Positions 1 through 64,000 of a stretch of 64,000 bases of DNA are shown here, one piece after another. This DNA comes from Magnolia sinica (Eukaryota > Streptophyta > Magnoliopsida > Magnoliales > Magnoliaceae). Each line of letters opens with the position of its first letter. Position 1 is the first letter of the stretch. Under the pieces are notes generated by a model. It made no database searches. It was not told the DNA's origin and worked only from the letters and a program-made list of their open reading frames with translations. Made by a program: the position numbers and the translations under genes. Where the stretch lies: positions 27,572,501 through 27,636,500 of the forward strand of contig NC_080577.1 of NCBI RefSeq assembly GCF_029962835.1, read 5' to 3'.

Positions 1-2725
1 AAACGTTAACCTATAACCTAAACCTTAACCTATAACCTATAACCTCAAACCTAAACCTAAACCTAAAGCCTAAAACCTAAACCTAAACCTAAACCTTAAC
101 CTAAACCTAAAACCTAAAACCTAAACATAAACCTAAACTTAAACCTAAACATATAACCTAAACCTATAAACTAAAACCTAAAACCTAAATGTATTCTCAA
201 ATTTCTAAACTTAAACCTACATCTAATCCTAATCTTAACTCCCTAACCTAAACCTAAACTTAAAAACCCAAACCTAAACCCGATCCCGAACCCGAACCTG
301 ATTTTCTAAACCTAAACCTTGACCTATTCTCAATTCCCTAAAGCTATAACATATAACCTAAACCTAAACCTAAACCTAACCTAAACCTATAACCTTAACC
401 TAAACCAAAACCTATAACCTAAACCTTAACCTATAACCTATAACCTGTAACCTAAACTTATAACCTCAAACCTAACCTTAACCTAAACCTAAAACCTAAA
501 CCTAAACCTATAAACTAAAACCTAAACCAAAACCTAAAATCTAAATGTATTCTCAAATCCCTAAACGTAAACCTACACATAATCCTAATCTCAACTCCCT
601 AACCTAAACCTAAACCTAAACTTGAAAACCCAAACATAAACCCGATCCTGAACCCCAACCCGATGTCCTAAACCTAAACCTTAACCTATTCTCAATTCCC
701 TAAAGCTACAACCTATAACCTAAACCTAAACCTAACCTAAACCTATAACTTAAACCTATAACCTTAACCTAAACCAAAACCTATAACCTAAACCAAAACC
801 TATAACTTAAAACTATAACCTTAACCTAAACCTAAAACCTAAACTTAAACCTAAACCAAAACCTATAACCTTAAACTAAACTAAAACCTATAACCTATAA
901 CCTAAACTTAAACCTAAACTTAAACCTAAACCAAAACTTATAACCTAAACCTAAACCTAAACCTTAACCTATTCTCAATTCCCTAAAGCTATAACCTATA
1001 ACCTATAACATATAACCTATACCTAAACCTAAGCCTAAAACCTAAACCTAAACCTACAACCTAAATGTATTCTCAAATCCATAAACATAAACCTTAACCT
1101 ATTCTCAATTCCCTAAACCTTAACCTATAACCTAACTTAAACCTAAACCTATAACCTACACTTACAACCTAAAACCTAAATGTATTCTCAAATCCCTAAA
1201 CCTAAATGTATTCTCAAATCCTTAAAGCTATAACCTATAACTTATAACCAAAATCTATAACCTAAACCTAAACCTATAACCTAAACTTATAACCTATAAC
1301 CTAAACCTAAAACCTAAACCTAAACCTAAACCTATAAACTAAAACCTAAACCTAAACCTAAAACCTAAATGTATTCTCAAATCGTTAAACCTAAACCTAC
1401 ACCCAATCCTAATCTCAACTCCTTAGCCTAAATATAAACTTCAAAATCCAAACCTAAATCCGAACCCGAACCCAATTTCCTAAACTGAAACCTTAACCTA
1501 TTCTCAATTCCCCAAACCTACACCTACAACCTATAACCTATAACCTAAATCTAAACTTAACCTAAACCTATAACCTTAACCTAAACCTAAAACCTAAACC
1601 TAAACCTAAACCTAAACCAAAATATATAACCTTAACCTAAACCTTAACCTATAACCTATAACCCAATAACCTAAACTTATAACCTTAACCTAAACCTAAA
1701 ACCAAAACATAAACCTATAACCTAAACCAAAACCTAAACTTAAAACCTAAATATATTCTCAAATCCTTAAACCTAAACCTACACCTAATCCTAATCTCAA
1801 CTCCCTAACCTAAACATAAACCTAGACTTGAAACCCCAAACCTAAACCTAATCCCGAACCCGATTTCCTAAAACTAAACCTAAACCTTAACCTATTCTCA
1901 ATTCCCTAAAGCTATAACCTATAACCTTTAACCTAAACCTAACCTAAACCTATAACCTTAACTTAAACTTAAAACCTAAAACCTAAACCTAAACCTAAAC
2001 CTAAAACCTAAATGTATTCTTAAATCCCCAAACCTAAACCTATACCTAATCCTAATCTCAACTCCCTAACCTAAACCTAAACCTAAACTTGAAAACCCAA
2101 ACCTAAACCCGATCCTGAACCCGAACCCGATTTCCTAAACCTAGACCTTAACCTATTCTCAAATCCCTAAAGCTATAACCTATAACCGACACTTATAACC
2201 TAAACCTATAACCGACACTTATAACCTAAACCTATAACCTAAATGTATTTTCAAATTCCTAAACCTACACCTACACCTAATCCTAATCTCAACTCCTTAA
2301 CCTAAACCTAAACTTGAAACCCCAAACCTAAACCCGAACCCGAACCCGAACCCGATTTTCTAAACCTAAACCTTAACCTATTCTCAATTCCCTAAACTTT
2401 AACCTATAACCTAACTTAAACCTAAACCTTAACCTATTCTCAATTCCCTAAACCTTAACCTATAACCTAACTTAAACCTAAACCTATAACCTAAACCTAA
2501 ACATATAACCTAAACCTAAAATCTAAATGTAATCTCAAATCCTTAAACCTAAACCTACACCTAATCCTAATCTCAACTCCATAACCTAAACTTAAACCTA
2601 AACTTGAAAACCCAAACCTAAACCCTATACCGAACCCGAACCAGAACCTGATTTCTTAAACCTAAACCTTAACCTATTCTCAATTCTCTAAAACTATAAC
2701 CTATAACCTATAACCTAAACCTGAT
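1..2725. repeat. Degenerate telomere-like (subtelomeric) satellite array
   Basis: The stretch is built almost wholly from CCTAAA (6 bp) and CCTATAA or CCTTAA variants, with very few copies of the canonical plant telomere heptamer CCCTAAA. A longer block recurs, beginning near TTCTCAAATCCCTAAAC, running through AATCCTAATCTCAACTCC and GAACCCGAACCCGA, and ending near CTCAATTCCCTAAAGC. Copies start near 190, 547, 1370, 1750, 2015, 2247 and 2528, so it is a higher-order satellite rather than a pure telomere tract. The C-rich strand reads 5' to 3' from base 1, the orientation expected at a left chromosome arm. No coding frame is credible. Confidence 0.9.
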
Positions 2726-2990
2726 TTCTTTTCATTTATCTGGATCACCTCTCATATGTTCTCTCTCTTTTCATTTGTTTTTTTTCATAAGATTATTTGT
2801 GTTTGGATGGATGCAGTTTATGTTTGGATGAATGTATTTTATGTTTGGATGAATTTACATAGTTTGGGTTTAGATGGATGTGAATGTGAATACGATGAAA
2901 TATATTATATAACAGGTGTATATCAGGAAGAATATGATGAATTATATTCTAATAGGTGTATATTAAAAAAAAAAAAGAAAGAAAGACTTT
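2726..2990. other. Unassigned AT-rich segment with a short internal repeat
   Basis: Between the satellite and the CACTA subterminal repeats. It holds about three imperfect copies of a roughly 20-bp unit based on TATGTTTGGATGAATG (about 2797-2860). The open frame across it is low complexity and I do not accept it as a gene. It may be CACTA interior. Confidence 0.4.
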
Positions 2991-3783
2991 TACATACGAA
3001 ATATTTCGTAGGTAAAAGTCTTTAGCGACAAATATTTTCCTCGCTAAAAGTCTTATCCACGTTTTTAAAATTGTTGCAGCCTTTAGCGATGAAAATTTTC
3101 GTCGTTAAAAGTCACATCCAGGTTTTTTAGCTATGAAACGTTTCGTAGCTAAAAGTAATCTTAACTGTTTAAACCAGCTTTTAACGACGAAGGTTTTCGT
3201 CGCTAAAAGTCTATTCCATGATTTTTAGATACGAATAGTTGCGTAGCTAAAAGTAATCCATTCAATTTTTTGAAAAATTGTTTGTAGCCTTTGGCAACGA
3301 AATTTTTCGTCACTAAAAATCTCATTCACAAATTTTAGCTACAAAAAGTTCGTTGCAAAAAGTAATCGATTCGATTAAATTGAGAAATTGTTTATAGCCT
3401 TTGGCGACGAAAATTTTCGTCGCTTAAAATCTAATCTACGATATTTAGCTATGAAAAGTTTCGTAGCTAAAAATAAATCGTTTGCACCCTTTCGCGGCGA
3501 AAATTTTCGTCGCTAAAAGTCTCATCCACGATTTGTAGCTACGAAAATTTTCGTAGCTAAAAGTAATCCATTCGATTCTGTGAAAAAGTTGTTTACAGCC
3601 TTTAGCGACGAAAATTTTCGCCGCTAAAAGTCTCATCCATGATTTTTAGCTGTGAAAATTTTCGTTGCTAAAAGTATCGTCGCTAAAAGTACACTTTTGG
3701 CGACGAAAAATTATTTCGTCGCTAAAAGTTACTTTTGGCGACGAAAATGTGTTTCGTCGCTAAAAACCCTCTTTCTTGTAGTG
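2991..3783 (-). mobile_element. CACTA (En/Spm) transposon end with subterminal palindromes; other end missing
   Basis: Read on the minus strand, the element starts at 3783 with CACTACAAGAAAGAGGG, the classic CACTA terminus. Inward lie about ten or more palindromic subterminal units of the type TAGCGACGAAA...TTTCGTCGCTA spaced through 3000-3780. It sits exactly inside the 5' LTR of the copia element: the base after 3783 begins TGACCTG, and the undisturbed 3' LTR reads through the same TGACCTG at 9544. TGA would be the 3-bp target duplication, but the left end and left TGA are not in the window, so the element is truncated or rearranged toward the satellite. Confidence 0.85.
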
Positions 3784-4107
3784 TGACCTGTGCAGAAGTT
3801 TTTTCTCTTCTTTTCTTCTTCTTTTGGGATTTTTTCCTTTATACTATAATACTGCCAGAAAGTGTGTAATTGAGTTCCATTTAGTGGGTCTTCGTGTTTG
3901 CTAAACGCAGACCCATACCAGGCTCGTCGTATCCTAGAAGTTATTTGCCTGTAACTTACCAGCATACTCAATTCACTTGAGTAGGGGCAAATAACGCTTT
4001 AAGGACAGCGTTTCAGACGTGCTTCAGCCTGTCCTGATTTCTGATTATTTTGCACTTTTCGGTTTCCATATTATATAGAAATACATTAATCTGTATAATA
4101 TCCAACA
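3784..4107 (+). repeat. 5' LTR, 3' portion only (copia)
   Basis: Matches 9544-9866 almost base for base, with one single-base length difference in a T run and scattered substitutions. Ends TATCCAACA. The first roughly 950 bp present in the 3' LTR are missing here, cut at the CACTA junction. Confidence 0.9.
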
Positions 4108-4130
4108 ATTCTTAAAGCGTTATTTTTCTG

Positions 4131-5402
4131 ATGGAAGCCGACAATGTTTCATCCATCAAGTTGATGAATCAGGACTTGATACGTCTTGATCGGTTTGATG
4201 GAACCAATTTTACAAGATGGTAAGACAAGCTGAAATTTCTCCTGACGGCACTGAAGATCTATTACATATTAGATCCAAATTTGCAAGCACTACCTAAAGC
4301 ATCTGACAATGACACACCTAAACAAGTAGCTGCCCGCATCAAAAGAGCCGAAGACGAACTCTTGTGTCGAGGACATATTCTGAACGCTCTCTCCGATCGC
4401 CTGTACGATCTGTACCAATAGACGTCATCAGCAAAGGAGATCTTGGCCGCTCTGGAATTCAAATATACGGCTGAAGAAGAAGGTACCAACAAGTTTCTCA
4501 TCGCCAGGTATTTTGACTTCAGCATGGTAGATAATAAACCGTTGCTACCCCAAATCCAAGAACTGCAGCTAATAGTAAACAAAATCAAAGCGATAAAAAT
4601 CGATCTTCCTGAATCTTTCCAAGTCGGGGCTATAATCGCCAAATTGTCACCGATGTGGAAAGACTATAGAAAGAAGTTGCTGCATAAAACCGAGGACTAT
4701 ACATTAGAACAAATCCAGAAACACCTCAGGATTGAGGAAGAATCCCGTAACCGCGATAGAAAAAATGATAACGGGAATACCTTGTCTAACGAGAAGGACG
4801 ATTTCTTAAAACTTAATAAAAGAAAATTCAAGAAGAACACCCAAAAGAAGAACGAAAAGTTCAAGGGCCCATGCCATGTCTATGGAAAAACTAGGCACTA
4901 TGCTCGAGTATGTCGCTATCGCAAATCTAAAAAAGAAGCAAGTGCAGTAGAAGAAGGCGATATCGTGGCTATGATCACTGAGGTGAATACCATCCAAGGA
5001 AAAGTTCCAGGTTTGTGGTATGATACTGTTGCTACTATACACCTGTGCTACGACAAATCAGCCTTCAAAATCTATGAGGAATTGACCAATGGTCAAGAAG
5101 TCCAAATGGATAATGAAGTCCAATCGAAGGTCGTCGGCAAAGGAACTGTCGAACTGATATTCACCTTTGGAAAGAAAGTGATTCTAACTAATGTACTGCA
5201 CATCCCAGACATGAGGCCAAACTTAGTTTCTGGGGATCTTCTGGGAAAATCAGGCATATGGGTGGTGTACGAGTCAGGTAAACTGATTCTGTCTAAAAAT
5301 AGGAATTTTGTCGGAAAGGGATATGCTTGTAACGGAATGGTTAAGTTTTCTCTAAATGAAAGAAGCACTTCTGCGTATATGGTTGAATTCGCTGGACTGT
5401 GA
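4131..5402 (+). pseudogene. copia gag-protease region, broken by stops
   Basis: A frame starting at the ATG at 4131 encodes a copia gag-like start and is interrupted by TAA at 4221 and TAG at 4419; the longest open stretch then runs 4443-5402. It includes a nucleocapsid zinc knuckle near 4885-4925 whose second cysteine position reads tyrosine, and a protease active site near 5022 reading D-T-V where the family has D-[ST]-G. The frame ends in TGA at 5400, just before the HxRLxH zinc-binding motif of integrase, which continues in the same frame. In intact elements this is one polyprotein. Gag packages RNA and protease cleaves the polyprotein; neither product looks functional here. Confidence 0.88.
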
Positions 5403-6473
5403 CATGATAGACTAGCCCATATAGGGTATAGTACGTTGAAGTTCATGGCTAAGAATGGTTTAATCTCATACACAGATAATGAAACCGAAAAATGTGAAGT
5501 GTGCATAAGATCCAAAATGACAAAGAAACCTTTTTCAAGTGTTGAAAGATCGTCTCAAATATTGGTTCTTGTGCACAGTGATATCTATGAGTTAAACGGC
5601 ATTCTTACTCGTGGAGGTAAACGGTACTTCATAACCTTTATAGATGATTGCTTTAGGTATGTGTATGTGTACCTATTAAAGAGCAAAGATGAAGCATTAA
5701 ACATATTTAAAATATGTAAAGCAGAAGTAGAGAATCAACTGAATAAGAAGATAAAAATTCTCCGTAGCGATAGAGGAGGAGAATACTTCTCCAATAAATT
5801 CGATAACTTCTGTGAAGAACATGGACTGATACATCAATGAATAGCGTCATACACACCTTAACAAAATGGTATAGCTGAAAGGAAGAATAGAACATTAGTA
5901 GAAATGGTTAACTCAATGCTGATAAGAGCAAAGTTATCACTAAGTCTATGGGAAGAGGCACTGCTTACAGCATGCCATATAATAAACAGAATTCCATCTA
6001 AAAAATATAAAATATCTCCATATGAAACATGGAGAGGTAGAAAACCTAACCTAGGATATCTAAAAGTATGGGGGTCTCTTGCATATTGCAGAACCCCTGG
6101 TCCAAAAAGAACTAAGTTAGGACCAAGAGCTATTAAATGCGCCTTCGTAGGGTATGCACAAAATAGTAAAGCTTATAGACTTCTAAACATAGAGTCTAAT
6201 ACAATAATAGAATCAAGAGATTTTGAGTTCTTTGAAAACTCACTATCCTTGGAGTCAAAGGATAATGAAATCCAAACTCCTAATAGAAAACCAGATAGCA
6301 CAGCTCCACAGATGGTGGAAGCTCCTATTGAGCCTCGTAGAAGTCAAAGGACAAGAATAGAGAAGAGTCTAGGAGATGACTATATAGACTCACAACGTGT
6401 CATTTTTCATCTTGTAGAAGGAGATAGAAAATGTTATAAGAAGAATACCTATAGTAATGACTATAGAAGATGA
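5403..6473 (+). pseudogene. copia integrase, broken by stops and a frameshift
   Basis: The same frame as gag continues with HDRLAH and a CxxC pair (pre-integrase zinc finger, near 5403-5510), the first catalytic aspartate in HSD (about 5575), the second in RSDRGGE (about 5765), and the glutamate in AERKNR (about 5875). Stops at 5838 (TGA) and 5859 (TAA) fall between the second aspartate and the glutamate. The C-terminal part is open from 5904 to 6473, but between about 6425 and 6456 the reading shifts by one base into the reverse-transcriptase frame. The integrase is therefore inactive in its own right. Confidence 0.88.
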
Positions 6474-8013
6474 TCCTAAAACATATAAAGAGGCCATATC
6501 CTCTAGAGACTCAGTTTTCTGGAAAGAAACTATAAATGATGAAATGGAATCCACACTATCAAATCAAATATGGGAAGTAGTTAACTTACCTCTAGGTTCT
6601 ATACCCATAGGTTGTAAGTGGGTATTTAAAAAGAAATATCACACTGATGGGACTATCCAAACCTTTAAAGCTCGACTAGTAGCTAAGGGTTTTAGACAAA
6701 AAGAATGGATAGATTACTTTGACACATACTCTCCTGTAGCTAGGATAATATCCATTAGGATATTATTTGCACTAGCTTCAATACATCATCTTCACATCCA
6801 CCAAATGGATGTAAAGACCGCATTCCTGAATGGTGACCTCAACGAGGAGATATATATGGAACAACCTAAAGAATTCATTCTACCAAAAAATGAAAATAAA
6901 GTATGTAGATTAGTCAAATCATTGTATGGATTAAAACAAGCACCAAAACAGTGGCATGAGAAGTTTGATTCCAAAATACTTTCTCATGATTTCATGCATA
7001 ATGTAGCTGACAAATGCATATATTCTAAAGTAGATGGTAATTACATCGTTATTATTTGTCTGTATGTTGATGACATGTTAATAATAAGTAATAAAATGGA
7101 AGGTGTAACTGAAACAAAAAGATTTCTATCTTCCGTATTTAAAATGAAGGATCTTGGACAAGTTGATACTATTCTTGGTATCAATGTTAAAAAACATTAT
7201 GGGAGTTATGCTTTGTATCAATCTCATTATATTGAGAAGATACTAAACAAGTTTAACCATCTAAATATAAAAGAAGCAAAGACCCCATTTGATCCAAGTA
7301 TCAAGCTAAAAGAAAATACTGGAAGAATAGTTGTACAATTAGAATATGCGAGTGCTATAGGGAGTCTTATGTATGTTATGCAATGCACTAGACCTGATAT
7401 CGCATATGCTGTGAGTAAACTTAGTAGGTTTACTAGTAACCCCAGTACTGAACACTGGAATGCAATAAGTAGAGTCCTTAGTTACTTAAAAGTAACCAAA
7501 GACTTAAGACTATTCTATTCAGAGTTTCCTACCGTATTGGAAGGATATACCGATGCAAGCTGGATATCGAGTGCAGGGGACAACAAGTCTACTACAGGGT
7601 GGGTATTCACCCTAGGAGGTGTAGCTGTATCTTGGGGATCCAAGAAACAGACTTGCATAACGCATTCGACTATGGAGTCTGAATTTATAGCCCTGGCTGC
7701 AACAGGCAAAGAGGCTGAGTGGCTAAGGGATCTTCTATTAGAAATTCATTTCTATGTAAAGCCTATATCGGCTGTGTCACTACATTGTGATAGTGAAGCC
7801 ACATTAGCTAGAGCCTATAGCGGGACTTATAATGGTAAGTCTAGACATATTAGTCTTCAACATAATTATGTCAAACAATTGATTCGAGATGGAATCATTG
7901 CTATTTCTTATGTGAAATCAAGTAATAACCTAACAGATCCTTTCACTAAACCTCTACCGAGAGAGGTAGTAAAGGTTACATCTAGAGGGATGGGGTTGAA
8001 ACTCTTCAACTAA
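6457..8013 (+). pseudogene. copia reverse transcriptase-RNase H open frame (518 codons)
   Basis: An uninterrupted frame covering the whole copia RT and RNase H domains. Visible landmarks are the [10 protein letters not shown] block near residue 70, [10 protein letters not shown] near residue 115, the catalytic YVDD at residues 203-206 (7063-7074), LYGLKQAP, and the RNase H run GYTDASW, with the aspartates of TDAS and CDSEAT and the glutamate of TMESEF, and a C-terminal end near [10 protein letters not shown] and RNase H would copy element RNA to DNA. It is out of frame with integrase and lacks a normal start, so I class it as part of a decayed polyprotein, but the domain itself looks intact. 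Confidence 0.9.
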
Positions 8014-8591
8014 AGTTCCACCAGTGATGGTAACCCAACCTAAAGTCAGAAAATCTCTAATTTTGAATTTAATGGGTAAGAACAAGTCACTGATATGTGG
8101 AAAGTTTTTCAGCACTAAAATTATAAAACCTCATCCATAATAGATAAGTTTTGAGCGTTACGATAGAGGGTTGAGTCTTAGAACTCTTAATGAAATCCAG
8201 TCTATAAGGACAAGTATCTTATAGTAACGGAGATATTGGAAGGATTTCACCTATATGAACGTAGAGATGGTGCCGTCTCTCATGAGAGTTAGGAGTTTTT
8301 CTCTCAGGATCGTTCATGAATTAGGATAAGCACATGGCCATTAATTGTGCTGAGTAAGATTGTGGGAACTCTAACAAACACATAGCGAATATGTGTGTGG
8401 TATTTCTAATTCTGTTATCTAGGAATAATTGGTTCAAAGCTGCGGCTACCAGTCATTTCGACGGAGTTTTGAAATACTTACACTAAGGAAAGATTAAAAT
8501 CGAAAGATATTTTTCTTTATGCATATAAGCAAATTATTTTGGTAGTATTGTTTAACCGAGAAAATATTTTTATAAAAATCAAGTGGGGGAT
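8014..8591 (+). other. copia 3' internal untranslated region and polypurine tract
   Basis: Non-coding stretch after the RNase H stop. It ends in the purine-rich AAGTGGGGGA (8581-8590), the expected plus-strand primer, directly before the LTR start. A paralogous version of this region is seen at 30440-31650. Confidence 0.75.
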
Positions 8592-9866
8592 TATTGCAAA
8601 AATATTGATTTTAATAAAAAAATATTTTAATAATAAAATATAATATAATATAAAAAGTTATTTTTGAAAAAATACTTTTCTACGGGTTTTTTGGGAATAG
8701 TCCCACATGGAAAAGAGAAGAGAAAAACCTGTAGTTTATATGAAAGATGTGGAGTATTATAATATTTACCTACCTAGTCCGTGGACTATGGACTTTGCGT
8801 GTTCCAGTGCGTACCGCGCGCGCGCTCGCGCTCGCGCTCGGGCTCGGACTCGGGCTCGGGCTCGGTGCGAGGGCGTGGGCATGCGAGGCAGTGTGGCTGT
8901 AGAGGCGCTAGTGGCGCACTTTGCACTTCACACGTCCGCATCGTGTCGCGGAGGGTCGCTCATTCGCGACCTTGAGCGAACTGGAGCGAGACGTGTGCGA
9001 GTCGCGGTGCGACTAAGTGGCTATGGCGGGTGGCTGGTTAGTAGAAAAACTAAAGGACTGAGAGAGAGATCTCTCAGTATAAATAAAGGAACTGAAAAAA
9101 GCTGTTGCAGCAAAAACTGTAACAGCTGAGCCATTAGTGCAGGGTCCAATTGTAACTGCTGCATGGCTAGCCCAACAGCTAGAAAACGGCTAGCTGTTGT
9201 CTCACAACAGTCAGCATGCAGTAGCTTGATGGTCCATGCACAACAGTCAGAAAACGGCCATAAAATGGCTAGTTTTCTAACAGCCAGAAATAGCTTAATG
9301 GAATTTAAGTCTCTGGACCATAACTCCCTAGCCACCATAGCCTATAAAAGGAGGACCTGGATGGGTTTCCAAACCATCTCAACTCACTCCAGCAAACCCA
9401 TACGAACTGAGACAGCCAGCCCCTCTCCACTCATATATTCTAGTGTTTCCAGCAACATAGTAAGGCTTAAACCTTAGCTTGAAGAACTGACCAGCGGTGT
9501 GGTCTAGAACGGTTCAACTGAACCAGTAGCTGAAGATTTGAACTGACCTGTGCAGAAGTTTTTTCTCTTCTTTTCTTCTTCTTTTGGGATTTTTTCTTTA
9601 TACTGTAATACTGGCAGAAAGTGTGTAATTGAGTTCCATTTAGTGGGCCTTCGTGTTTGCTGAACGCAGACCCACACCAGGCTCGTCGTATCCTAGAAGC
9701 TATTTGCCTGTAACCTACTAGCATACTCAATTCACTTGAGTAGGGGCAAATAACGTTTTAAGGACAGCGTTTCAGACGTGCTTCAACCTGTCCTGATTTC
9801 TTATTATTTTGCACTTTTCGGTTTCCACATTATACAGAAATACATTAATCTGTATAATATCCAACA
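8592..9866 (+). repeat. 3' LTR of the copia element (about 1.27 kb)
   Basis: Begins about TATTGCAAAAATATTG after the polypurine tract (TG of a usual TGTTG start apparently mutated) and ends CCAACA at 9866. It contains an alternating GC-rich run of CGCGCTCG-type units (8815-8868), a TATA box, and short repeats around AACAGCTAGAAAACGG and CAACAGTCAGAAAACGG (9170-9260). The last 323 bp match the partial 5' LTR. The start is inferred, not proven, since the 5' LTR start is missing. Confidence 0.75.
9343..9349 (+). promoter_or_regulatory. TATA box in the copia LTR
   Basis: TATAAAA inside CCTATAAAAGG, about 520 bp before the LTR end. It would place the RNA start (U3/R border) near 9375. A weaker TATAAATA lies at about 9080. 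Confidence 0.6.
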
Positions 9867-32142: not shown

Positions 32143-32558
32143 CGTTAGAGCATGGAAAATCAATCCATTTATCTCATAGCCCCACGGGCCGCCCACTCTG
32201 AGTGTGCCCCTGCATCGCACAGGCAACCCCGCTCGAGCCCGGTGTGAAATTGCCCCTGCATTAATCACCCCCAGTGAGGAGTTTCAAACACGAGACATTC
32301 CGCTCTAATACCAATTCGATGCAGGACAATTAACCACTTACTTTAAAAGCTTGAACCGTTAGAGCATGGCGAATCAATTCATTTATCTTATATCCCAGGC
32401 CCTACATCTCATGGGTTAGGACCTCGATCAAACCTCCCTTGTGGGCCCCAAATCACATGGGTACCGCCTCACTCGTGCTGCCCACATCGAGTGTGCCCCT
32501 GCATCCCACCAACAACCCTACTTGAGCCCCAATGTGAAAATGCCCCTGCATTAGATTG
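32143..32558 (-). mobile_element. TRIM-like element, 5' LTR side damaged
   Basis: A partial LTR ends at 32263 (TGCATTA), then a 53-bp internal segment (32264-32316) and a 237-bp LTR (32317-32553). On the minus strand the internal segment starts, three bases from the LTR end, with TGGTATTAGAGCGG, a tRNA-iMet primer-site match. GATTG follows at 32554-32558. Same family as 44873-45179 and 62125-62879. Confidence 0.75.
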
Positions 32559-43023: not shown

Positions 43024-46000
43024 GTCTCTCTCTCTCTCTCTCTCTCTCGGTGAGATTGTTATGTATCGTTCGTTCGGGGAAGCATAGTGGCAAACTTTTT
43101 CCCGGCAATTTCTGGGCCTGGAAAATTCCCAGGAGATTTTTCAAAATTTGAGGTTTTTTTTTTTCAAAAGCAACGTAAATTTGATAAATAAAAATATTTA
43201 TTGTAAATTGATAAATAAATTTTAAAAATCCTTGATTGTAATCATCATGTGTACTAGACTATTAGATAGCGCTTGATTGAAATCAACCTATTTAATAGTC
43301 CATTATATTGTGCTTGTGGGATTTTGGTGCTCTCATTGTTGGTCCCAAGCCCGGATAAAGGAGGAGGATTTTGTCAGAGTGGCAGCCGGTGTCAGACTTA
43401 TGCCATAACTTCCATCACCAATCCGAACAATTCGACATTCCAAGCTCATGCTAGGGCATTCCCTGTAAGCAATGCGCTGCATCAGAGCCCGGGTGTAGTG
43501 AGAAATGGGCAAGGGTTGGCTAGGGCATCCTCCGGAGGTGAAGTGTCACAACAATACCCAGTTTCTGTGAGAAGTAGGCAATGGTTCTTGTGCCATTCTG
43601 GACATATGTGTGTAAAGAAGCTACTCTAGGAGAACATGATTTGTCTTGCCACATGGAATATGGGAACAATGACAGGTAAGAGTATAAAGTTAGTAGATAT
43701 AATGAAATGAATGGGAGTTGACATAGCTTGCATTCAAGAGACCAAGTGGAAAGGGGCCAAAACTAAAGAAATTGATGGATATAAACTTCTGTATATAGGA
43801 AAGGATAATAATAGAAATGGGGTCGGGATGGTGATAGACAAAGATGTAAGGGATAAAGTAGTAGATATTAAGAAAGTAATTGATGTGATTTTATTAATAA
43901 AGCTCGTGTTAGGAGTGGAGTTAATCAATGTTCTCAATCCATATGTACCACAGACAAGGTTAGAAGATAGAATCAAAAGATGATTATGGGAGGATATGGA
44001 TGGGCTAATGCAAGGACATCCGAGTAGAGAGGATATTTGCAGGAGGAGACTTAAATGGTCATGCAGGAAAATAAAGTAGAGGATATAAGAGCATGTATGG
44101 AGGATATGGTTTTGGGAGAAGAAATGAGATGGGGAATGCTATCCTTGATTTTGCGATGGCATACAATCTAGCTCTAGCAAACACATACATTAAAAAGAGA
44201 GAGGAACATTTAATTTCATTCAAAAGTGGATCATATACATCACATGCCAAATAGATTTCTTTCTACCTATGAAAACAAAACAATTGATATGTGAGGATTG
44301 CAAGGTTATACTAGGAGATTCGTACCGCCCAACATACTTACATAGGTTAATGGTTATTTATGTCTATGTTAAGAGATAGTAGAAAGGGAGTGTAATTAAT
44401 AAGTGTCCAAAAACTAGGTGGTGGAATTTAAAGGAGAGAATAATGTTGTTTAGAAAAAAATTGTTGGAAGAAGAAATGTGGAATTTTGAGGAAGAAGTAA
44501 ATGTTACATGGAATGAGATGGTTGAGTGCATTAGGAAAGTGACAAAAGATGTTTTAGGGGTATCTAGAGGGAAATGCCAATCATAGAAGGAAACTTGACG
44601 GTGGAATGATGGTGTAGAAAAAGCTATTCACGGGAAATATTGATGTTTTAAAGCTTGGCAAGGGATTAGAAATGGTGAAAATTATGAATAATATAGAAAT
44701 CTGAAAAAGACTTCTTAAAAAGTAGTAAGTGAGGTTAAACATAAGGCTTATGTTAATTTTACATTAGACTGGGGACTAGAGAAAGATGTATTCAAACTTG
44801 CAAAAATGGGAGTGAGTAATGGTAAGGACCAGATCATGTTAGATGCATTAAGAGCGATAACCAGAGGGTACTTAATGCGGGGGCATTTTCATTCCGGGCT
44901 CGAGTGTGGTGGCTCGTGGGATGCAGGGGTACACTCAGGGTGGGTGGCCTGCAGAACCCATGGATTTAGGGCCCGTGTGAGGCGGGTGGCTCGTGTGAGG
45001 TGGAACCCATGGATTTGGGGCCCACAAGGGGGCGGAACCTATGGATTTGGGGCTCATGAGGAGGTTTGGCCGAGGATCTAACCCATGGGTTTGGGGCCTG
45101 GGCTATGAGATAAATGGATTAATTCACCATTCTCTATCAGTTTGAGCTTTTAGAGCAAGTGATTAATTGTCTTGCCTCAGTACTAGTAAAAGACAATGGG
45201 ATCAATGAAAGGTGGATAAGCTATTTTTAGAACATGTTAAATGACAACCACTCTAAGAGGATAGGAATGGAAGGAACCATAAATTCAAATGATGTTGAAT
45301 ACCATAGATACATTCGTAGGATTAGAACATTTGAAATGAAATAATCTTTGAGAAAGATGAAAAGAGGAAGGGCCCTTGGACCAAATGGTATACCGATAGA
45401 GGTTTGGTTACTTTGATTGACAAAGTTGTTTAACAAGATTGTAAGATCGAAGAAAATGCCAGACAAATGGAGGAACAATAGCATGATACCTATTTATAAG
45501 AGCAGAGGAGACACAGAGTTGCAGTAACTTTCGTGTGAACAAAGGAGACATATAGAGTTGCTCTAACTTTTGTGCAGTTAAACTTATGAGCTATACTATG
45601 AAACTTTGGGAGAGAGCGATTGAACAAAGACTAAGGCATGAGACGAATGCTGGGAAGTCTATCACTGAAGCTATTTTTCTACTTGGACAATTGATGGGGA
45701 AATATAAGGAGAGGAGGAAGGATATTCACATGGTCTTTATTGACTTAGAGAAACTATACGATGGAGTCCTTAGAGAGTTAATCCGACGGGTGTTGGAAAA
45801 GAAATGAGTCTTAAGAGGATTGGCATTGTTAATGATATGTATGAGTAGAACAAATGTGAGAACCACCAATGGAGAGATCAGTGAGTTCCCAATTAATGTG
45901 GGCTTGCATCAGGGGTAGATATTAAGCATGTACGTTTTTTGCATTGGTTATGGATGGGTTATTGAAACATTTGTAGGAAGTGATCTTGTTTTGTATGTTG

Positions 46001-61939: not shown

Positions 61940-62990
61940 AGTTTCGTGCTTTCATCAATCTTTTAGTGATTTTATTATGTCATAAGTTCGTCCAGACATA
62001 GTAAAGTACAGATTTGTAAGATCTCTTTGGATCTCTACCTTTTGTTTTTGGCCCATAAAACATGTCTAAGGCCATATGTATGAATGCGAGTTGATGAATT
62101 TTATGGAATAAAAGAAAGTGATTGTGATGCAGGACAATTAACCACTTGCTCTAAAAGCTCGAACTGTTAGAGTATGGCGAATTAATCCCTTTATCTCATA
62201 GCCCAGGCCCCATATCTCATGGGTTAAGACCTCGGCCGAACCTCATTTGTGGGCCCCAAATCACATGGGCTACCCACCTCGAGTGTGTCCCCGCATCTCA
62301 CGGGCTGCCCCACTTGAGCCCGGTGTGAAATGCGCATTAATCACCCCTGGTAAGGAGTCTCGAACACAAGACCTCCCCCATGGGCCCCAAATTGCATGGG
62401 TCACCCACCCCGAGTGTGCCCCTGCATCCAACAGGCGACCCCACTCGAGCCCAGTGTGAAAATGCCCCTACATTAATCACCCTCGGTGAGGAGTCTCGAA
62501 CACGAGACCTCCTGCTTTGATACCAATTTGATGCAGGACAATTAACCACTTGCTCTAAAAGCTCGAACTGTTAGAGTATGGCGAATTAATTCCTTTATCT
62601 CATAGCCCAGGCCCCACATCTCATGGGTTAGGAATTTGGCCGAACCCCCTTCGTGGGCCCCAAATCACATGGGTCGCCCACCTTGAGTGTGTCCCCGCAT
62701 CCCACGGGCTACCCCACTTGAGCCCGGTGTGAAATGCGCATTAATCACCCCTGGTAAGGAGTCTCGAACACGAGACCTCCCCTGTGGGCCCCAAATCGCA
62801 TGGGTCACCCACCCCGAGTGTACCCCAGTATCCAACAGGTGACCCCACTCGAGCCCAGTGTGAAAATGCCCCTGCATTAGATTGTAGGGAGAAGTGTATT
62901 CTCTTGCAAAGGGAGAAAACCCTAAAAACCAACCTTTTTGCATTTCGTGGGTTGTGCAAAAATCTGTTCATCTTCTTTTCTTCTTTCGCA
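61940..62990 (+). repeat. Direct repeat copy A (possible LTR), split by a TRIM-like element
   Basis: 61940-62119 plus 62885-62970 match 63466-63710 in order (TTTATTATGTCATA, GGAATAAAAGAAAGTG, GTGCAAAAATCTG). Near 63007 a weak primer-site match TGATATTAGAACAAG follows. Confidence 0.6.
62120..62884 (-). mobile_element. Complete TRIM-like element: 351-bp LTRs, 53-bp internal region
   Basis: LTRs 62125-62475 and 62529-62879 are the same length and nearly identical; they end TGATGCAGG and TGCATTA. Only 62476-62528 lies between. On the minus strand the internal part carries TGGTATCAAAGCAGG (62525-62511), three bases from the LTR: a tRNA-iMet primer site. GATTG flanks both sides. The paralogous copy B at 63630 reads through without the insert. 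No coding capacity; it would need another element's proteins to move. Confidence 0.9.
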
Positions 62991-63331: not shown

Positions 63332-63465
63332 ACATCTCTCACTGTGGCCACTGAAACAAAATACTGTCAGATTTCTAGCATCCATCTCTAACATGCAATC
63401 CTGTCTGTCCGATAAGAGAATCTTTTATGAGATCAATAATCTAGTAAATAGTTGGTTAGTTTCCT

Positions 63466-63710
63466 CTTTTAGTAGAAGTCCATCCTTTGTTGATCTTTTA
63501 ATGATTTTATTATGTCATAGGTAGTCTAAAAATAGTAAAGTTCAGAGTTGCCAGGTCTCTTTGGATAACTTATCGTTTGTCTTTTTGGCCTATTTGGACT
63601 TGATGAATAGTATGGAATAAAAGAAAGTGAGTTTAGGGAGAGTATTCTATTACAGAAGGAGAAACCCTTAAAAATAAGACCCTTTGAATCATTTAGTTTG
63701 TGCAAAAATC
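63466..63710 (+). repeat. Direct repeat copy B
   Basis: Uninterrupted counterpart of copy A; shows the empty site of the TRIM-like insertion (AAAGAAAGTGAGTTTAGGGAG). Confidence 0.65.
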
Positions 63711-64000
63711 TGCTTTGGAACATTGGTTCTTTAATCAATGATGGGGTCTCTTGAATTGTGACCAACTGAGCTACTTCGGACTTGTTGGTCCCTTGAAAAT
63801 TGGCATATTGTATATCCAGATTATAAAATGATATTAGGATCATACTTGTTGTTCTCGCTTCTTCCAAGGGGAGCAACCGAGGTAGCAACTCTTGCAAAGG
63901 AGGCACTAATGAGAGTGTCACCATTGGCTATGCAATCCCGCTCTCCTAGCCTTTGTACTCTGTTGCTTTTCTTTTGCTTAATAAAATTTTTAGGTGCCTA
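63711..64000. other. No gene seen; LINE-like tail at the edge
   Basis: The last bases (CTCTGTTGCTTTTCTTTTGC, then TTAATAAAATTTT) resemble an L1 3' end, but too little is present to name it. Confidence 0.3.

Follow-up and report, generated by a model that had tools for sequence, protein, structure and literature searches.

The question raised by this locus is what kind of element occupies positions 62120 to 62884 of the window (the whole stretch of 64,000 nucleotides of Magnolia sinica DNA that was analysed), and how its LTRs came to hold a piece of the element's own internal region. Our main reading, to which we give a probability of roughly 0.8, is a non-autonomous, TRIM-type LTR retrotransposon, whose long LTR arose by a single fusion of core and U3 sequence, and which uses Ty3/Gypsy enzymes. 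The features in the window are as follows.

62120..62124, unstranded: target-site duplication GATTG, left, adjoining copy A
62125..62475, minus strand: 3′ LTR of copy A, 351 bp, left-hand in the window
62340..62376, minus strand: core fragment embedded in the 3′ LTR, 37 bp, with outer U3 fragment 62377-62475 and inner LTR 62125-62339
62476..62528, minus strand: core of copy A, 53 bp
62514..62525, minus strand: primer binding site (PBS) TGGTATCAAAGC in the core of copy A, Met-tRNA type
62529..62879, minus strand: 5′ LTR of copy A, 351 bp
62744..62780, minus strand: core fragment embedded in the 5′ LTR, 37 bp, with outer U3 fragment 62781-62879 and inner LTR 62529-62743
62880..62884, unstranded: target-site duplication GATTG, right, adjoining copy A
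63415..63712, plus strand: paralogous empty site, a diverged copy of the flanks of copy A lacking the element
32143..32553, minus strand: copy B, with 5′ LTR 32317-32553 (237 bp), core 32264-32316 (53 bp) and 3′ LTR 32143-32263
44873..45179, plus strand: solo LTR, 307 bp, in the opposite orientation to copy A, inside degraded LINE-like sequence

Copy A (62125-62879, minus strand) consists of LTR, core and LTR. An earlier note on this DNA had described it as having equal 351-bp LTRs, a PBS, GATTG on both sides and an empty site, and this description is confirmed throughout. The two LTRs, each of 351 bp, are identical at 327 of 351 positions. In the orientation of the element they start with TAATGCAGG and end with CCTGCATCA, and the PBS TGGTATCAAAGC, which we take to be complementary to the plant initiator Met-tRNA, begins three bases (AAT) into the core. 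In most cores of the A-like set described below it reads TGGTATCAGAGC. The joined flanks of copy A align to 63415-63712 with 231/276 identities and a score of 187, compared to 31 for the best of 200 mononucleotide shuffles, and the two GATTG copies of the filled site correspond to a single GAGTT in the paralogue. The remainder of the core outside the PBS is predicted to form two hairpins, with a z-score of only −1.75 (8 of 200 shuffles fold equally well). The 3′ end of the cores, checked as a polypurine tract, is CCGGGGGTGAT or similar, which is G-rich but contains no clean purine run.

The copy at 32 kb had been presented as the same 53-bp core between LTRs of unequal length. The 53-bp core (44/53 identical to that of copy A) and one complete LTR, the 237-bp 5′ LTR, are indeed present, but this is not a clean short-LTR element, and the difference in length is partly due to damage, because the 3′ LTR is truncated and internally deleted. 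Clean short-LTR elements are present elsewhere, for example loci L046 and L059. The solo LTR is real, and is flanked on both sides by its own duplication GTACT (44868-44872 and 45180-45184), which the earlier note did not report. When its flanks are joined, a reading frame runs across the insertion site; the surrounding degraded sequence is presumably a LINE. Solo LTRs are known in plant TRIMs. Elsewhere in the window, positions 1-3766 are taken up by a long array, tandem or satellite-like, in which GC skew is strong, and the repeat pairs 43773-44183/55400-55801 and 13199-13476/15880-16164 are dispersed, direct and inverted, and 76-80% identical.

The 1.84-Gb assembly (127 contigs) was searched with copy A as the query, and the best 40 scored of 5137 first-look candidates gave 39 A-like loci other than copy A. 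All locus sets used here were picked by similarity and are not a census. Of these loci, 34 have the arrangement LTR-core-LTR (L2I1) and five are tandem arrays, LTR-core-LTR-core-LTR (L3I2), all five bearing exact duplications. The LTRs are 337-353 bp long, and every internal region is 53 bp (44/44). Exact 5-bp duplications at unshifted ends were found at 25/39 loci, as against 0/1482 cross-locus flank pairings; for matches of at least four of the five bases the figures are 34/39 and 34/1482. The exact duplications, together with the constant internal regions, indicate a genuine TRIM family. No strong target motif was seen in the 25 exact duplications, where G is the first base in 11. The sequence GATTG does not occur among them, and neither GATTG nor CAATC is found in the five bases beside either end of any of the 39 loci. 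The GATTG that also follows the 32-kb copy, raised as a caveat in the earlier note, is therefore best read as coincidence; GATTG is not a general feature of insertion sites, and can be ruled out as part of the element.

Many further copies exist. The exact 53-base core occurs at 61 places in the genome and its reversed control at none. In a set of 39 loci obtained with copy B as the query, 42 of 44 cores are 53 bp, the remaining two being 52 and 54 bp, although these cores were chosen by a near-complete blast match, which biases them toward a constant length. The proposed combination of a constant core with variable LTRs thus holds across the family: LTR lengths are mostly 234-256, 290-295 and 350-367 bp, with extremes of 113 and 621 bp in damaged or compound loci. 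Three loci (L091, L094, and L097) belong to a third length class of about 291-295 bp, with no embedded core by the score cut. L029 and L030 share their flanks, as if a single insertion had been copied along with its surroundings. L021 and L024 adjoin further core sequence. L075 (G000:C11:72898257-72901568) is a compound locus where the family has been rearranged repeatedly; it contains two cores and LTR-like stretches measuring 359, 621, and 367 bp. The median LTR divergence is 0.041 (35 two-LTR loci including copy A). LTR substitution rates used for dating run from 1.3e-8 to 1.5e-9, and with these the divergence corresponds to 1.6 to 14 My, too wide a range to use.

The family has the features by which a TRIM is recognized, namely two LTRs around a very short non-coding internal region, a PBS after the 5′ LTR, and a 5-bp duplication. 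Every feature examined agrees with the TRIM-like identity that had been proposed: the LTRs come in pairs, a PBS is present, independent insertion sites bear 5-bp duplications, copies are dispersed, and an empty site exists. A transcript would start from the 5′ LTR, and Met-tRNA would prime its reverse transcription. Reverse transcription and integration would be carried out by enzymes of a Ty3/Gypsy family with the same PBS, leader and LTR 3′ terminus CCTRCATCA. No 5S rRNA or tRNA-derived LTR sequence of the Cassandra/TRIMp3 type was found in the window by Rfam at gathering score and ARAGORN, and no hammerhead ribozyme in an LTR, as in retrozymes, by Rfam at gathering score. Searches of prokaryote genome contigs and viral contigs (one exact 21-base and one 19-base LTR pattern) and of plasmids (blastn) gave no match, as expected for a plant element.

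The most unusual feature is the LTR itself. In transcription orientation, the 351-bp LTR begins with 99 bp of U3, continues with 37 bp of core, and closes with a complete inner LTR of 215 bp, which runs from TAATG to CATCA. The core part GGAGTCTCGAACAC had been noticed within each LTR; the repeated stretch corresponds to core positions 17-53, and is 34/37 and 33/37 identical in the two LTRs. One and the same U3/core junction is common to 85/85 A-type LTRs (83 from the 39 loci and the two of copy A), from which we infer a single ancestral fusion. The suggestion that the LTR grew by recombination with the core is thus supported and can be refined, in that U3 and core fragments stand ahead of a complete inner LTR. 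In the other sets the embedded core was detected in 35/116 LTRs, by a score cut that misses some (such as the second LTR of L062). The outer fragment is 14 bp shorter in many of these LTRs and shorter still in L070, and L098 and L075 have a longer inner terminus. Short LTRs of about 236 bp have no embedded core. By eye, the microhomology between core and U3 is three bases (GGG) for most U3 variants and seven (GGGAGGT) for that of copy B.

Synthesis may have crossed between core and U3 where the two have a short G-rich microhomology, through a reverse transcriptase template switch or a deletion in a tandem array, which placed a U3 fragment and a core fragment ahead of a complete LTR. Reverse transcription would then copy the enlarged U3 to both ends, and the long form would amplify; a switch during reverse transcription would lengthen both LTRs within a single round. 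A single fusion followed by amplification is the simplest reading of the long LTR. The direction, from short to long, we infer from structure rather than from a rooted tree, and the embedded-core junction could predate the short LTRs compared here.

The two LTRs of one insertion can also differ in length. Of the 61 exact-core places, nine lie in loci already collected, and the first 20 of the other 52 were examined. Both LTR ends were present in 17 of these, with exact duplications in 12. The LTRs are unequal by at least 48 bp in 6/12 loci with exact duplications (352/231, 353/231, 253/200, 235/357, 326/278, and 220/351 bp) and in 0/5 without. The B query favours loci with a short 5′ LTR, and in its set the LTRs are unequal by at least 15 bp in 10/19 loci with exact duplications. 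For six pairs of a long and a short LTR (L042, L072, L087, L089, L098, and L104) the differences are 116, 117, 121, 122, 122, and 131 bp, and the spacings between outer and inner U3 are 117, 117, 121, 122, 122, and 131 bp, a match to within 1 bp in 6/6, which rests on six aligned bases for L087 and L089 and 13 for L098, with L042 off by one. L074 (353/113, with no duplication) was excluded from this comparison as a remnant. The short LTR of L087, L089, and L098 is approximately the inner LTR alone, and differences of 18 bp fall in a tandem 18-bp unit. The agreement of length differences with internal repeat spacings indicates that LTRs change length at direct repeats, be it after insertion or during reverse transcription. 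With U3 present twice in the long LTR, one copy could be lost there, which would yield elements with one long and one short LTR.

A quite different identity, a SINE-like, Pol III or ribozyme element that merely resembles an LTR element, is very improbable: the core does contain GTGTTCGAGACTCC, loosely similar to the Pol III B box consensus, but ARAGORN finds no tRNA and no Rfam family reaches gathering score, and paired LTRs with a PBS and duplications are as expected of an LTR element. SINE, tRNA-derived and retrozyme identities were rejected on these searches of the window. The origin of the long LTR is more finely balanced. It may have required no unusual reverse transcriptase event, if a genomic deletion in an LTR-core-LTR-core-LTR array joined mid-U3 to core and ordinary reverse transcription then carried the product to both ends. 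We rate this a little below even odds. Tandem arrays with exact duplications make up 5/39 of the A-like loci, and they are described as common in TRIMs in the part of PMC4717578 consulted. The array route nevertheless takes two steps, and no array with an intermediate junction was seen among the loci; L098 and the pair L042/L072, with a short 5′ and a long 3′ LTR, have the expected shape, yet are better explained as later loss. As for the unequal LTRs, exchange between elements of different subfamilies, by gene conversion or intermolecular strand transfer, seems an unlikely substitute for loss at direct repeats. Both polarities do occur with exact duplications (L087 and L089 as against L098 and L104), and an LTR's own partner is usually not its nearest LTR, being nearest in 14/35 A-type loci and mostly not in the older sets, for equal and unequal pairs alike. 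Because equal-LTR loci behave in the same way, this last comparison does not separate exchange from loss, and the size differences fit the internal repeat spacings, down to the 18-bp differences in the tandem unit.

The earlier note had proposed finding the autonomous helper by its LTR ends and primer site, and this approach yielded a candidate Gypsy relative. Nine exact sites genome-wide have the LTR end and PBS with no core-like bases next to them at the positions tested. One of these, L079 (C11:70962600-70972599), is a 6.5-kb element with TRIM-type LTRs of 254 and 274 bp (234/254 identical), flanked by exact AGAAC on both sides. Weak gag and zinc-knuckle matches that do not reach the curated cut-offs are followed, in this order, by RVT_1, RNase H, and Integrase_H2C2 matches that do. 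Reverse transcriptase and RNase H ahead of integrase is the Ty3/Gypsy order. The element is degenerate with broken frames, and its integrase is incomplete: no part other than H2C2 scored, the frame that follows (6305-6463) matches no Pfam family, and the truncated integrase gives way to the final 29 bp of the core and then the 3′ LTR. L079 has these 29 bp, the PBS and the LTR in common with the TRIM. The best 39 other relatives of its leader, out of 536 first-look candidates, match at 79-87%. TRIM LTR and Gypsy leader occur together at 3/40 scored places, one of them L079. L079 is only 80 and 78% similar to the other two, no closer than leader relatives generally. Of the four leader flanks that were read, that of L108 shows TRIM core sequence followed by a TRIM-type LTR, and the other three carry another LTR of about 1 kb ending in CCTACATCA, with a TGATG start in two of the three by eye. 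At L108 (G000:C9:40335650-40336180) the order is TRIM LTR end, core, LTR, and Gypsy leader, which is a TRIM unit and a Gypsy unit with a common LTR. The window also contains a presumably Copia-like element at 3784-9866 (LTRs 3784-4107 and 9544-9866, 324 bp and 95.7% identical; frames 4422-8010), which was considered as a helper and set aside, its LTRs appearing unrelated by eye.

A Gypsy element with TRIM-type LTRs and exact duplications makes this Ty3/Gypsy family, judged from sequence, the likely helper of the TRIM. The three places that combine LTR and leader are read as chimeras, or as remnants of a parent lineage. That L079 and the two like it are not chimeric TRIM/Gypsy RNAs but represent the true coding parent lineage, in which an internal deletion gave rise to the core, is a real possibility to which we lend slightly less than half our belief. 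It would account for the match in LTR, PBS, and the terminal 29 bp of core, but it sits poorly with the different LTR on three of the four leader relatives that were read and with the 80 and 78% similarity of L079 to the other two places. More speculatively, and on balance doubtfully, TRIM RNA in this flowering plant may be packaged with a Ty3/Gypsy helper and undergo frequent template switching: onto itself, from which the self-embedding LTR and its abundant subfamily would descend; at direct repeats, so that LTRs would be unequal already at integration; and onto the helper, producing TRIM-LTR/Gypsy chimeras such as L079, L108, and C18:10248045. If this were true, the genome would be a fossil record of strand transfer by a plant reverse transcriptase, easily read thanks to the 53-bp core.

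The magnolia family bears on how TRIMs arise, grow and find helpers, and provides a Gypsy-linked case. It also presents a clear fusion, through which internal sequence of the element became part of its LTR before that LTR spread. Methods that find LTRs, or date insertions from LTR pairs, should allow for unequal lengths of the two LTRs of a single insertion. No TRIM with an LTR embedding its own core was found in the literature searched, which misses most subscription journals and all supplements. LTR and core sequence strings had no match in paper texts, which does not make the family undescribed.

TRIMs and their tandem arrays have already been published (PMC4717578, PMC11899658), and the comparisons that follow refer to the available portions of the papers cited. 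Plant TRIMs (PMC4717578) likewise have a small LTR pair, a PBS, no coding region, 5-bp duplications, and L3I2 arrays. The magnolia family differs in that its LTR embeds a fragment of its own core and its internal region is only 53 bp, shorter than in the three examples compared (85 and 122 bp as stated, and 129 bp by subtraction). Large relatives are reported there for only 11/289 TRIM subfamilies, and for flowering-plant TRIMs all are Ty1-copia, whereas the relative found here is Ty3/Gypsy. SMART, or FRetro129 (PMC3281118), is also very small and has a candidate coding partner, but is 292 bp long with 85-bp LTRs and a 122-bp internal region; its LTR has only an 11-bp motif in common with the partner, which is apparently Copia-like. 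Wukong of maize (PMC4528315) resembles the magnolia family in its tandem LTR arrays and in having a putative coding counterpart, Sanzang, while a self-embedded core in the LTR is absent from the passages compared. Complex insertions in Triticeae (PMC1950507) have an extra LTR within intact duplications, ascribed to template switching by reverse transcriptase; in the text compared these are a whole extra LTR and core at single loci, and not a fused LTR spreading as a subfamily. Finally, Cassandra, Helenus, and Ajax (PMC7215508, PMC10886601) are TRIMs with additional sequence in the LTR, and Cassandra forms tandem arrays. In those elements the added sequence is described as 5S rRNA or tRNA, whereas in the magnolia family it comes from the element itself.
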